This document shows positions 51,911-55,740 of a stretch of DNA of 60,773 bases, one piece after another. The DNA is taken from positions 1 to 60,773 of the forward strand of contig JARGOG010000028.1 of the NCBI GenBank assembly GCA_029212785.1, read 5' to 3'. This DNA comes from Thalassobaculaceae bacterium. Lineage in GTDB: Bacteria > Pseudomonadota > Alphaproteobacteria > Thalassobaculales > Thalassobaculaceae. Each line of letters starts with the position of its first letter. Position 1 is the stretch's first letter. A program made the translations under genes and the position numbers. The notes beneath the pieces are model-generated. The model searched no databases, was not told the origin of the DNA, and saw only the letters and a list, made by a program, of their open reading frames with translations.

Positions 51911-53080
51911 TCACGCCGCCCGGGCGGCCACGAAATCCATCACCCGCGGATTCTCGCGCTGCAGCGGCCCGACGCCGAACAGTTCCTGCCACATGACCTC
52001 GTGGAAGAAGAACTTCGTCGTGTTCACCACCACCTGAAGAATGACGAGGACGCCGGCGGCGAAAGGCTGGCCGATGAAGACGTAGTCGATGCCGGCGTTG
52101 ATCGTCGTGACCACCACCCGGTAGGTGAAGGCCTTGTATCCGGCGACCGTCGCGTAGGTCCATGCATTCTCCGCCTTCGGTTCGATCTCGGCGTCGATGA
52201 TGGCCCTCTGGCGGGCGTATTCGTCGGCGCTGACGGTGCCGGTTTCCCGGAGCACTTCGAGCTGCGCAAGGCGCTGCGCCCGGTCGGTCGTCTTGCCGGT
52301 GAACGCGATGTCGTCGAACGGATTGGCGAAGGCGGTCCCGGCGGCAAGCGGCACGCGCAGCCCCTGTTCGACCGCCGGATAGACCGAGCTCGCCCAGGCG
52401 GCAACCGACTGCACCTTGGCCAGCGGTTCCGGGGCGGCCGCGATGTTGCTCGGCAGCCAGGATTCCATCGCCGTGCCGGTTGCCGGAGCGCCCTTGTCCA
52501 TGGCGGCGAACTGGTAGCGCACCTCGACCGCGTCATACCGGTTGGCGACCCGGAATCCCGCTTCCAGGAAAAGCTGCGGCACCACCAGGTCGGTGGCCAG
52601 GGCGTGGGTCATGACCGCGTCGTCGACCGGTCGGACCGTGTCTCCCAGCCACGTGGAGGAGGCCGGCTGCACCCACATGCAGGACACGTCCCACCCGCTC
52701 TTGTAGCGGGTCAGCGTGGCGTAGATATCGTCCCGCCTGCAGTCGCTGGCGATGCCCCAGCCGTCGGGGTGAGGCAGGGTATTGACCACGATCTCCACCG
52801 CGTCGGCGATGATGCCACCATCGGAGCGGACCAGGACGATCCGTCGGATCGGGCCGTAATCCGCCGGATTCACCTGGGCGCCGTATTCCGGCTGCGTGAT
52901 CCCGGCGAAGCCGAGGGCGACAACGGTATGGGGGCCGGCCGGGAGCGGCACGTCCTTGCCGGACACCCGGAGCACGTCGGTGACGGTGTCGCCGATCGTG
53001 AGCGCCGATGCCGCACGCGAGAGAGGCGCGGTGCAGACCAGCACGGCCGCCGTGACAAGAATTGCGAGATGCATCCTCAT
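51911..53080 (-). CDS. Exported/membrane protein of an unrecognised paralogous family (copy 1)
   Basis: A 389-residue protein with four parts. A signal peptide (about 1-26) is followed by an unassigned domain (about 28-230) with VPLPAGPHTVVALG, GWGIASDCRRDDIYATLTRY, Cys114 and Cys134, and GFRVANRYDAVEVRYQF. Then comes a SHOCT-like helical hairpin (LAQLEVLRETGTVSADEYAR, about 271-290). Last is a DUF2061-like membrane module (GYKAFTYRVVVTTINAGIDY to NTTKFFFHEVMWQ, about 314-364). It is clearly paralogous to the next gene upstream, with both cysteines at identical positions, and overlaps it by four bases. Function unknown. Confidence 0.85.
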   Translation of the reverse strand: MRMHLAILVTAAVLVCTAPLSRAASALTIGDTVTDVLRVSGKDVPLPAGPHTVVALGFAGITQPEYGAQVNPADYGPIRRIVLVRSDGGIIADAVEIVVNTLPHPDGWGIASDCRRDDIYATLTRYKSGWDVSCMWVQPASSTWLGDTVRPVDDAVMTHALATDLVVPQLFLEAGFRVANRYDAVEVRYQFAAMDKGAPATGTAMESWLPSNIAAAPEPLAKVQSVAAWASSVYPAVEQGLRVPLAAGTAFANPFDDIAFTGKTTDRAQRLAQLEVLRETGTVSADEYARQRAIIDAEIEPKAENAWTYATVAGYKAFTYRVVVTTINAGIDYVFIGQPFAAGVLVILQVVVNTTKFFFHEVMWQELFGVGPLQRENPRVMDFVAARAA

Positions 53081-54267
53081 GACACCGGCTCCGCCGCCTG
53101 TTCGATATAGTTGAACTCCACCAGCTCCGAGCCGTCCTTGCGCTGGCCGGCGATGTAGGAGTCCCAGGCCACGTCGTTGGCGATCTGTGCCATCGAGTGG
53201 GTCAAGACGATCGACGCCGTGATGTATCCGGAGACCGCGGCGTTCACCGTCACGATGAAGGCCAGAAGATAGTCGACCGATACCCGGAACAGGTTGAACG
53301 AGATCATCTTGGCCACGAGGGTCTGGTAGTAGTTTTCGATCGTCGGGGGTGGTGCCGTGTTGTCGACCGCCGCGAAATAGGCCGCCAGGTCGTCCTGGCG
53401 GATCACACCGTCGGCGGCGAGCTCTTCCAAAGCCCGTTTGCGTGCGGCATTGCTGGCCCGACCGATGGCGCTCGGGTCGACCGTGCCGTCCTCGACCAGC
53501 GCCAGGGGTTGGGGCACGGACCGGCCATGCAGCTTCTCCGCCAATCGGCCGAGCAATCCGCTCTCGAACAGCTCCGACGTCAGCCCGGCCCAGGCGTTGA
53601 GGTCGTTCACGACCGCGTATTTGTTGGAGTCGGCGACAACGCTCTCGGGCGTCCAGACGGCGATCGCCGGCGCCAGGGTGCCAAGCTCAAGCCCGTCGAA
53701 ATGATACCGCGCGTCGAGAATGTCCTGACGGTTGGAGAGCCTGAAGCCGACGGTCAGCCACTCCTGCGGCAAGGCGTAGCTCCGCTCGGCCGCGAAAGCC
53801 TTCGCCGCCTGCCAGGCGTCGGTGCCGCCGACGGTCGCCGGACGGGTGGTCTCGGTGACGAAGTAGCAGAAGCCGTCGACCGCGGTCCGGTACAGGTTGA
53901 GTTTCGCCAGGACGCCGTCGCGCCGGCAGGCATCGGTGGTGCCCCAGCCTTCGGTCACGGAGATCACGTTGGTATTGATCTCAACGATGCCACGGACCTT
54001 GTCGCCGTTGAGCTGCAGCAGTACCGCGTTCTCGATCGTCCCATAGGCGCCGGCGACACCGGAGACGATCGTGTTGTTCCCCATGCCGGCCACGGTCCAG
54101 TCGCCGTCGGGCAGCGGCACCTGCCGGCCCTGAAGCTCGGCATAGCCGGACAACGTTTCGCCGACCTCAAGTGCCGTCGCATCGAGCGCGCCGCCAGTGA
54201 CGGCGGCAACCGTCAGCACCAGCCCCGTAAGGTGGCGGGTCGCCGTATTTGAGTGCCCCCAAAACAC
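53077..54267 (-). CDS. Exported/membrane protein of an unrecognised paralogous family (copy 2)
   Basis: A 396-residue paralogue of the gene at 51911. A hydrophobic leader (about 11-32) precedes the same unassigned domain: VPLPDGDWTVAGMG, GWGTTDACRRDGVLAKLNLY, Cys114 and Cys134, GFRLSNRQDILDARYHF. A SHOCT-like hairpin (RKRALEELAADGVIRQDDLA, about 277-296) and a DUF2061-like hydrophobic module (about 316-372) follow. It has a hydrophilic tail of about 25 residues. The start is GTG at 54267 with AGGGGG eight bases upstream. Its stop overlaps the next gene's ATG. Function unknown. Confidence 0.85.
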   Translation of the reverse strand: MFWGHSNTATRHLTGLVLTVAAVTGGALDATALEVGETLSGYAELQGRQVPLPDGDWTVAGMGNNTIVSGVAGAYGTIENAVLLQLNGDKVRGIVEINTNVISVTEGWGTTDACRRDGVLAKLNLYRTAVDGFCYFVTETTRPATVGGTDAWQAAKAFAAERSYALPQEWLTVGFRLSNRQDILDARYHFDGLELGTLAPAIAVWTPESVVADSNKYAVVNDLNAWAGLTSELFESGLLGRLAEKLHGRSVPQPLALVEDGTVDPSAIGRASNAARKRALEELAADGVIRQDDLAAYFAAVDNTAPPPTIENYYQTLVAKMISFNLFRVSVDYLLAFIVTVNAAVSGYITASIVLTHSMAQIANDVAWDSYIAGQRKDGSELVEFNYIEQAAEPVS

Positions 54268-54331
54268 GCCTTAATCCCCCTAAGATTGTATCGTGAGGCC
54301 TCGGCTCTCGCCGGATATCGCAGACAGCCTC

Positions 54332-54802
54332 TCAGCGCTGCAGCATCACCACGGTGTTTGTCGTCTCCAGCGGGCCTGAACTCGTCTCGGTCACGGCCGT
54401 CGGTTCGGAAAAAATGTAGATTCCACCGATCAGACCGAGCGCCATGCCGGTCACCGCGCCGACCAGACGCGGCTGCATCACCGTATAGGTCCCGGCGGTG
54501 GTCAGCGCGCCGTCGATGGCGCCGGCGGTCGCGGCATAGCCGGTGGCGACCGCAGCGGGGGTGGAGAAAATCGGGGCGAGGGCCCCATTGATTGTGCCCG
54601 CCGTGGCGACATAGGCCGACCCGAGAGTCGGCGCCACCATCGGCGCGACATAGGGCAGGCCATAGGCGCCGATGATCGTCCCCGCCAGGGTGAGCGCGAA
54701 GGTTTTGGCCAAGGTGTTGGTGGTATCGGCCGCGGCTGGACGGGCGATCAGCAGAACTGTCGCCAACGCCAATATGGAGAGTGAGAGTGATCGCCGCATC
54801 AT
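54332..54802 (-). CDS. Small exported Ala/Gly/Thr-rich membrane protein, unknown function
   Basis: A 156-residue (155 if the second ATG is used) protein with a signal peptide (SLSILALATVLLIARPAAA). It then has two or three weakly hydrophobic Gly/Ala/Thr-rich stretches. An internal repeat is visible: YVATAGTINGAL near residue 64 and YAATAGAIDGAL near residue 89. LVGAVTGMALGLIGGIYIFS is the clearest transmembrane segment. It lies 64 bases upstream of the paralogous pair on the same strand, so it is probably the first gene of their operon. I do not recognise the family. Confidence 0.75.
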   Translation of the reverse strand: MMRRSLSLSILALATVLLIARPAAADTTNTLAKTFALTLAGTIIGAYGLPYVAPMVAPTLGSAYVATAGTINGALAPIFSTPAAVATGYAATAGAIDGALTTAGTYTVMQPRLVGAVTGMALGLIGGIYIFSEPTAVTETSSGPLETTNTVVMLQR

Positions 54803-55272
54803 GCCCCTCGCATCGACTTAGGTTCAGCCAATCGGCGAACCACGGGTGGACCTGTCATACACATCCATCACCTCCAGTATGCGTGGCGGGCCCCGGAGTC
54901 GCAATCAAATTTCTAAAAATGATGAAGTAACCAATAGGGGAAAAACTGGCCACTTTCAGGTGATCTCTCGATGAGCCCCAACGCGGTAATCGGCGATGAC
55001 GCGGGCGGCAGGGCCGCCGGCAGTATGTGATCGACGCCCGAAATACGCGTCATAGGAGTATGTAGGGGCCCGATTTCCCGTGAGAATGGGTGATTCTAGG
55101 TGTTGGTCTGCCGCGTCAGTAGCGGTTTTTCCGTTGGACGCAAAACGCCATCGACACGTGACACAACTGGGTATACGTGCGGCCTTGCGCATTGCATACG
55201 ATACTATTTTCGACCCGAAAAACCATTGAAAATCAGTGGGTAATTGAGCCAACTGCATTTGAGAGGCTGAGC
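54803..55272. other. 470-base non-coding, locally AT-rich region
   Basis: Between divergent genes. The part around 54899-54960 is much more AT-rich than the rest of the window (runs such as CAAATTTCTAAAAATGATGAAG), and 55080-55260 is also A/T-rich with patches like GATACTATTTTC. It probably holds promoters for both flanking genes. A 100-codon minus-strand frame (54956-55258) has no gene-like features. I see no RNA gene or clear repeat. Confidence 0.5.
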
Positions 55273-55740
55273 ATGCCGATTACCTGGACTGTAAGCGACT
55301 CCGGCGATCTCCTGGTGTTCTGGTACTCCGGTCGGATCACCCCGGAGGAGGCCCGGATCGTGCAGATCGAGTCCTGGGACGCGGTGCCGCCCGGGGGCGA
55401 GTTCGTCTCGCTGATGCTCTTCGACGACGACGTCACCGCCCCGGATGCGACGCTGGACGCGCTTACGGCGCTGTATCGAGGTCGCGGCGAGCAACTCAAG
55501 GCCCGGGGGATGCATCGGCGCGCCGGTGCCGCGGTGGGGCCCGGCTCCGCCGATGCCCGCCATCTGATGCCGCTCTGGAACGCGCTACGCCACCTGTCGG
55601 ATATGGACGTCACCTTCACGATGTTCGACGACCTCGACGAGGCGATCGAGTTTCTCGGTGTCGACCGTGCCGCGGCCATGGCCGTGATCGAGCGACGGCC
55701 GCCGGCGTCCGAACCGCCGGACGACAGGGCCAACGCTTAG
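55273..55740 (+). CDS. Hypothetical cytoplasmic protein, possibly STAS/SpoIIAA-like
   Basis: A 155-residue acidic soluble protein with no signal peptide or membrane helix. Alternating strands and helices (MPITWTVSDSGDLLVFWYSG, GRITPEEARIVQIESWDAV, SLMLFDDDVTAPDATLDALT, VTFTMFDDLDEAIEFLGVD) suggest an alpha/beta sandwich reminiscent of SpoIIAA-like or STAS proteins, but no family motif is clear. The start was chosen for GAGAGG upstream. It is monocistronic in appearance, 96 bases before puuE. Confidence 0.7.
   Translation: MPITWTVSDSGDLLVFWYSGRITPEEARIVQIESWDAVPPGGEFVSLMLFDDDVTAPDATLDALTALYRGRGEQLKARGMHRRAGAAVGPGSADARHLMPLWNALRHLSDMDVTFTMFDDLDEAIEFLGVDRAAAMAVIERRPPASEPPDDRANA

Follow-up and report, generated by a model that had tools for sequence, protein, structure and literature searches.

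A conserved trio of genes for predicted exported proteins in alphaproteobacteria encodes a candidate cell-envelope complex

We describe a conserved three-gene set for exported proteins that lies in a 60,773-nucleotide stretch of DNA, the window, which is the whole of contig C99 in the 4.9-Mb genome of a Thalassobaculum-type alphaproteobacterium. Three minus-strand open reading frames, named C, B and A in gene order, were confirmed where a first-pass annotation of this DNA had drawn them: gene C at 54332..54802 (156 amino acids), gene B at 53077..54267 (396 amino acids, GTG start) and gene A at 51911..53080 (389 amino acids). We propose, with a probability of about 0.5, that the sequences describe a heteromeric cell-envelope complex in which paired periplasmic PsbP-like domains would be combined with DUF2061-type membrane helices and with C as a partner. 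The trio is a conserved set not found described in the open-licence literature searched, with a new sequence family whose fold is probably PsbP-like. As far as the evidence goes, it is a novel combination of known types of part and not a new kind of system. Pairwise ratios of non-synonymous to synonymous substitution rates among three Thalassobaculum genomes (0.19-0.24 for A, 0.13-0.19 for B and 0.10-0.17 for C) indicate that all three genes are real.

The set is kept together wherever it occurs. The window's A is 82% identical over its full length to a protein of Thalassobaculum litoreum DSM 18839, and it was matched in 10 of 98 genomes (its own and relatives), seven of which hold the full A/B pair. 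A profile of C applied to the same 98 genomes recovered those seven and one more, G086; in a sample of the class, C was present in 5 of 385 genomes. Among these is G383, a member of a different family, which carries the complete trio in identical gene order. The complete trio is therefore found in eight genomes from four genera and two families, always as C-B-A. This count takes the loci L003 and L021 as one, since they are a single T. litoreum contig, and excludes a tandem pair in G216 that has the N-terminal domains described below, no C nearby and DUF2061 scores of 0.8 and 0.1 bits. C adjoins the pair in 8/8 loci bearing A-clade and B-clade genes, and the genomes searched held no lone gene of either clade. 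Homologues thus do occur as pairs and trios, and the opposite outcome, which the first-pass annotation had named as a refutation, did not arise. In the window, the stop of B and the start of A overlap by four bases (53077..53080, minus strand; ATGA), and an overlap of the form (A/T/G)TGA recurs in all eight loci, given the start codons chosen. These are the tandem genes that the first-pass annotation had called translationally coupled; the end of C lies 64 bp upstream of B. At one locus, in G026, A (L026:7225-8400) is split over two reading frames, by a sequencing error or because the gene is broken; we omitted it from alignments A1, A3, A5 and A6 and kept the B of that genome.

The surroundings of the trio vary by genus. 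When neighbourhoods from Thalassobaculum, genus g3, genus g6, G383 and G216 were compared, the genes in common, among the matches listed, were those of the trio plus a few matches of 29-30% to common gene types. The distribution is also patchy, as the trio was not found in G004, a genome of the same genus that is 97% complete. In addition, B of G383 groups weakly with Thalassobaculum B (support 90/78). G383 may therefore have gained the trio by transfer, and vertical descent is not the necessary reading of its presence in two families.

A and B are paralogues, as the first-pass annotation had claimed. Profile-profile comparison aligned them over 350 columns with 100% probability (E 1.2e-45), and the window's two proteins share 32% identity in the N-terminal domain. 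This domain, hereafter the N-domain, spans residues 24-262 of A (52295..53011, minus strand) and, by alignment A6, residues 31-265 of B (53473..54177, minus strand). A maximum-likelihood tree built from 31 N-domains separated A and B into groups supported at 96/93 and 97/97, and the G383 pair contributed one protein to each. The duplication thus predates the last ancestor shared by the known trios, every one of which has retained both copies. If the G383 trio was not acquired by transfer, the duplication would also predate the divergence of the two host families. The C-terminal modules have diverged much further: they share 9% identity in the window (8/85 positions in a MAFFT alignment), and on their own they gave no match in hhalign (probability 1.8%). 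Kinship of these modules is suggested by their shared position and by the matches to double-DUF2061 proteins presented below.

All three proteins begin with what by eye is a Sec-type signal sequence. At the AxA site, orthologues of B and of C do not vary in either alanine and those of A only in the final one keep it invariant, in keeping with the earlier view that the proteins are exported. Within the N-domain, Cys114 and Cys134 occur in both A and B, as had been noted, with an additional Cys16 in the signal sequence of A. The pair is kept in all 14 rows of alignment A3 and in 30 of the 31 N-domains of alignment A6, which takes 9 of its rows from the 13 trio N-domains in alignment A5 and adds 22 others. 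An LPxG motif is kept in 31/31 rows. The flanking motifs VPLP, CRRD and GFR(V/L)xNR are indeed present in A and B of the window. As a conserved motif, CRRD did not hold up; it is strain-specific, and orthologues keep its cysteine and mostly the arginine two residues on.

Searches of Pfam and NCBIfam with the window proteins and ten relatives yielded no family that fits the N-domain, so a confident match to a characterised family did not arise there. Nor did PsbP, DcrB, LpqN or Pfam families of the same fold match the three window proteins or the ten relatives at E 1. A profile built from 14 N-domains matched 19 of the 385 class genomes, 16 of which lack the trio. At the level of the phylum it matched 4 of 398 genomes, our own included, and the one match outside the class was partial. 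The N-domain family is wider in the alphaproteobacteria, and the trio appears to be one special form of it. Other members are single, tandem (G338, G216 and G333, none with C nearby) or doubled within one protein (G249 and, over two frames, G413), and a SHOCT-like tail follows the domain in G338, G368 and, by eye, G298. Five distant relatives, from G146, G244, G298, G300 and G333, have lipobox-like starts by eye. Together with the signal sequences of other N-domain proteins, these starts would place the domain outside the cytoplasm. Separate duplications, in tandem in G338 and G333 and within a protein in G249 and G413, suggest a tendency of the domain to act in pairs. A survey of genes neighbouring the distant N-domain genes, with L072, L094, L097, L064 and L065 left out, found no common theme. 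In G160 (L070:6203-9510), a single N-domain gene sits between genes for a FecR-domain protein and a ShlB/FhaC-type outer-membrane transporter on the same strand, and in G333 (L096:5511-7026) a pair of lipoprotein-like N-domain genes runs in tandem along one strand, outside any trio.

Structure prediction gave the N-domain a likely fold, which the sequence searches did not. AlphaFold2 modelled entire A with a predicted local distance difference test score (pLDDT) of 75; with 31 sequences, the N-domain of A reached pLDDT 87.4 and a predicted template modelling score of 0.87. On re-alignment with VIA-align 2, the best row was a cyanobacterial PsbP (2xb3; Z 8.1, root-mean-square deviation (rmsd) 4.1, 134 residues). 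It was followed by Mog1 (1jhs; Z 7.5, rmsd 4.7, 147 residues), another PsbP (1v2b; Z 7.3, rmsd 4.0, 130 residues) and the PknH ectodomain (4esq; Z 7.3, rmsd 3.9, 138 residues). Lower rows included TiME (7cu8; Z 6.7, rmsd 3.8, 135 residues), DcrB (6e8a; Z 5.9, rmsd 4.0, 110 residues), Tsi3 (4n7s; Z 5.6, rmsd 4.6, 119 residues) and LpqN (6e5d; Z 5.2, rmsd 4.5, 131 residues). CyanoP, PsbP, Mog1, DcrB, LpqN, the PknH ectodomain and Tsi3 belong to one fold group, and several Mog1/PsbP-like proteins are extracytoplasmic. The top Z of 8.1 is suggestive and not proof; the tool itself cautions that a Z below 8 may reflect merely a common arrangement. Given moderate Z values and this caution, a Mog1/PsbP-like fold is likely for the model, homology to these proteins is a possibility, and the fold does not give the function. 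The likeness lies in the topology of the model, and identity to the N-domain is 3-11% over 50 rows. The conserved cysteine pair and the SHOCT/DUF2061 tails of the trio set it apart from these proteins. The N-domain stands as undescribed at the level of sequence families, and the earlier description of it as unassigned gives way to this likely fit.

The C-terminal DUF2061-type module is clear in A and fainter in B. Residues 316-365 of A (51986..52135, minus strand) match DUF2061 (PF09834), a family of predicted membrane proteins, at 39.5 bits against a Pfam cut-off of 23.1, and 6/6 A proteins match. Across six orthologues K316, R321, D332, N353, K356, H360, E361 and W364 are invariant, so that the 50-residue module keeps the K...R...HE..W pattern of the family. 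The corresponding helical module of B (53080..53349, minus strand) scores 15.2 bits, below the cut-off, and reads ND..W in place of HE..W. Five of seven B proteins, the window's included, match DUF2061 weakly, with E values of 1 or less, the lowest being 0.0032. Searched against 6773 stop-to-stop frames of the loci analysed, a profile of the B module found exported double-DUF2061 proteins as its best matches outside B (L093, E 0.0023; L020/L030, E 0.051); against 2200 shuffled proteins, L093 scored 16.6 bits and the top shuffle 5.9. Assignment of the B module to DUF2061 rests on its position, the weak matches in 5/7 B proteins and the double-DUF2061 matches only. The strongest DUF2061 member in the same genome, L090, is short and lacks a signal sequence, whereas A carries its module at the end of an exported multidomain protein and the copy in B has diverged to below the cut-off.

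Between N-domain and DUF2061 module, A has a hairpin resembling SHOCT (PF09851; residues 270-295, 52196..52273, minus strand), where the AlphaFold2 model places helices 263-279 and 285-297. Its Pfam score of 12.2 bits (E 0.16) does not pass the cut-off of 27. The match is weak in 6/6 A proteins (best E 7e-4) and stronger in relatives G338 (E 3.4e-5) and G368 (E 8.4e-4); the likeness is that of a hairpin following the N-domain, and every protein among the scores listed falls below the Pfam cut-off. A model made from the tails of distant relatives alone gave A 4.3 bits, with a shuffle maximum of 4.1. In the window's B there was no Pfam row for SHOCT, and a model made from the relatives plus A scored it at -2.0 bits. 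That model gave 13.8, 9.8 and 8.1 bits for the B proteins of G026, G018 and G010 (shuffle maximum 6.4), and Pfam detected SHOCT in one of seven B proteins. The four-part order that the first-pass annotation had assigned to both paralogues thus survives in A, with a weak signal for the hairpin. In the window's B the DUF2061-like module is sub-threshold and the SHOCT element could not be detected.

Exported proteins with two DUF2061 modules offer a further lead. Within the order, PF09834 was matched in 11 of 36 genomes searched, and the matches listed all exceeded the cut-off. Apart from the short canonical proteins, long two-module frames, most of them headed by what by eye looks like a signal sequence, are present in the seven trio genomes of the order and in G009, with 2-4 proteins per trio genome (loci L093:1363-1914 (G000:C68), L092:1087-1677, L141 and L144-L153). 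They are thus present in 7/7 trio genomes and 1/29 others of the order (Fisher p 1e-6). This link is a lead and not a test, because of the relatedness of the genomes and because 16 of the 36 fail the standard of at least 90% completeness and at most 5% contamination. Pfam checks on four such proteins, three from these genomes and one from G091, which lies outside the order, gave DUF2061 matches above the cut-off, and LPxWxRTLYK often precedes the first module. The double proteins resemble A and B in their export and DUF2061-type modules and are the nearest matches of the B module; they differ in having no N-domain, two modules per protein and genomic sites away from the trio. Searches of the open-licence literature found no paper on them. 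We rejected a Rosetta-stone arrangement in which the A module would correspond to the first and the B module to the second module of the double proteins: the A-module profile favoured module 2 in three of four proteins and module 1 in one, and the B-module profile did the same in the same three and one.

C is the small, repeat-bearing exported protein predicted directly upstream of the pair, and our analysis agrees. It is rich in Ala and Gly, has relatives at the same place in all eight trio loci, and after its signal sequence shows two hydrophobic stretches by hydropathy (residues 35-53 and 113-131). Pfam gave no family for C, and TrbC pilin was rejected as a candidate (E 0.32). Its repeated unit of ~25 residues is found in Thalassobaculum only, other genera having a gap there. 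A relative of C in G307 (L089:5540-6016) carries several short Ala/Gly repeats at the same position. This stretch of C thus seems free to expand. The G018 locus reads C-B-A-C', with a second C relative directly downstream of A (L024:6529-6852).

In the complex that we propose, A and B would be exported by Sec and, once in the periplasm, their Mog1/PsbP-like N-domains would each fold about a single disulfide, Cys114-Cys134. The two N-domains may lie next to each other in an A:B pair, while the DUF2061-type helical tails would tie both proteins to the membrane and to one another. C, being small and Ala/Gly-rich with two hydrophobic stretches, could serve as a membrane partner. The N-domains may be non-catalytic modules that bind a protein or a small ligand beside a membrane complex, an analogy drawn from PsbP, DcrB and further proteins of the Mog1/PsbP-like kind. 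A would be the working subunit, as its DUF2061 module keeps all charged residues, with B a diverged partner. DcrB has been described as a Mog1p/PsbP family protein that is periplasmic and anchored in the membrane (PMC7716261). An oligomeric complex, first suggested by the initial annotation, is a fair inference from these features. An experiment by the SHOCT authors themselves gave no backing to a role of SHOCT in oligomerisation (PMC3581485).

Several observations weigh against such a complex. C occurs without an A/B pair in G307 (89% complete); in G086, C and an N-domain gene lie far apart on separate contigs; and in the examined loci of the 16 genomes without a trio, no C accompanied an N-domain gene. 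The C-terminal module of A has one strongly hydrophobic stretch only over threshold. A two-pass membrane hairpin is therefore uncertain, and an amphipathic or oligomeric hairpin may form the tail instead. Cleavage of the signal peptide would leave the Lys and Arg residues that open the DUF2061 module on the periplasmic side, contrary to the positive-inside rule. The fold match is moderate as well: below the top row Z does not exceed 7.6, and many rows are repeat PsbP entries that are not independent. With Foldseek the N-domain model had no match reaching E 0.001, and GntR effector (UTRA) domains headed the ranking (E 1.6e-3). The N-domain could on that ranking be a UTRA-type ligand sensor and the trio an envelope sensor, the least probable of the readings considered here. 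VIA-align 2 placed UTRA below the PsbP-like fold, with Z of at most 5.7 over 97-113 residues compared with 5.2-8.1 over 110-151 for the PsbP, Mog1, PknH, TiME, DcrB and LpqN rows.

A rather unlikely alternative is that A and B act separately, for example as homodimers with different ligands, and that C is merely co-transcribed. Single N-domain proteins in most other genomes fit that account, as do the C relatives without a pair in G307 and G086 and the failure of the module 1/module 2 split. It sits poorly with the B/A overlap in 8/8 loci, with the lack of solitary A-clade or B-clade genes in the genomes searched, and with the position of C beside the pair and the retention of both copies in every trio. 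Participation in iron or envelope stress responses seems quite improbable. It draws on DUF2061 genes elsewhere that respond to iron or peroxide stress: as excerpted in their sources, Caulobacter CC_0155 is among iron-responsive, Fur-regulated genes (PMC3751524), Shewanella SO_4740 appears in an iron/SsoR gene table (PMC12442407) and Pseudomonas PA3237 is tied to polymyxin B resistance (PMC12632274). However, these are other DUF2061 proteins and may be unrelated to the trio architecture. Upstream of C, inspection by eye showed a weak likeness within Thalassobaculum and no convincing regulatory motif across genera, and a scan at the trio returned no sigma-70-type promoter sites.

The heteromeric complex could extend further. 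We raise, as a doubtful possibility, that DUF2061 on the outer face of the inner membrane anchors an envelope machine of A, B, C and one or more double-DUF2061 proteins, with trio and double proteins gained and lost jointly. The parts consulted of the open-licence literature searched gave no molecular function for DUF2061, and that literature was not found to report DUF2061 together with SHOCT or a signal peptide. The trio shows DUF2061 in exported proteins and offers a compact, conserved three-gene set for probing its function. It also brings to light an unnamed alphaproteobacterial domain of ~200 residues, present in 19/385 class genomes and outside the coverage of Pfam and NCBIfam here. By itself, the trio overturns no accepted picture.

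Further searches with the trio were negative: PADLOC anti-phage defence profiles gave 0 families for A, B and C at E 1, a plasmid search gave no match to A, and a sequence search of the PDB found nothing for A and one chance row for B (E 1.3). Two 1.5-Mb single-contig genomes, G001 and G005, share a genus label with genomes of 4.7-5.6 Mb, and the label looks odd. Adjoining the cluster is a 187-residue open reading frame on the plus strand (55177-55740) for which Pfam gave nothing at E 0.01. Genes flanking the trio appear functionally unrelated, with CoA-transferase and enoyl-CoA hydratase types recognised by eye. Pfam identified a methyladenine glycosylase (PF03352; 51078-51752) and a polysaccharide deacetylase (PF01522; 55837-56751) on its flanks.

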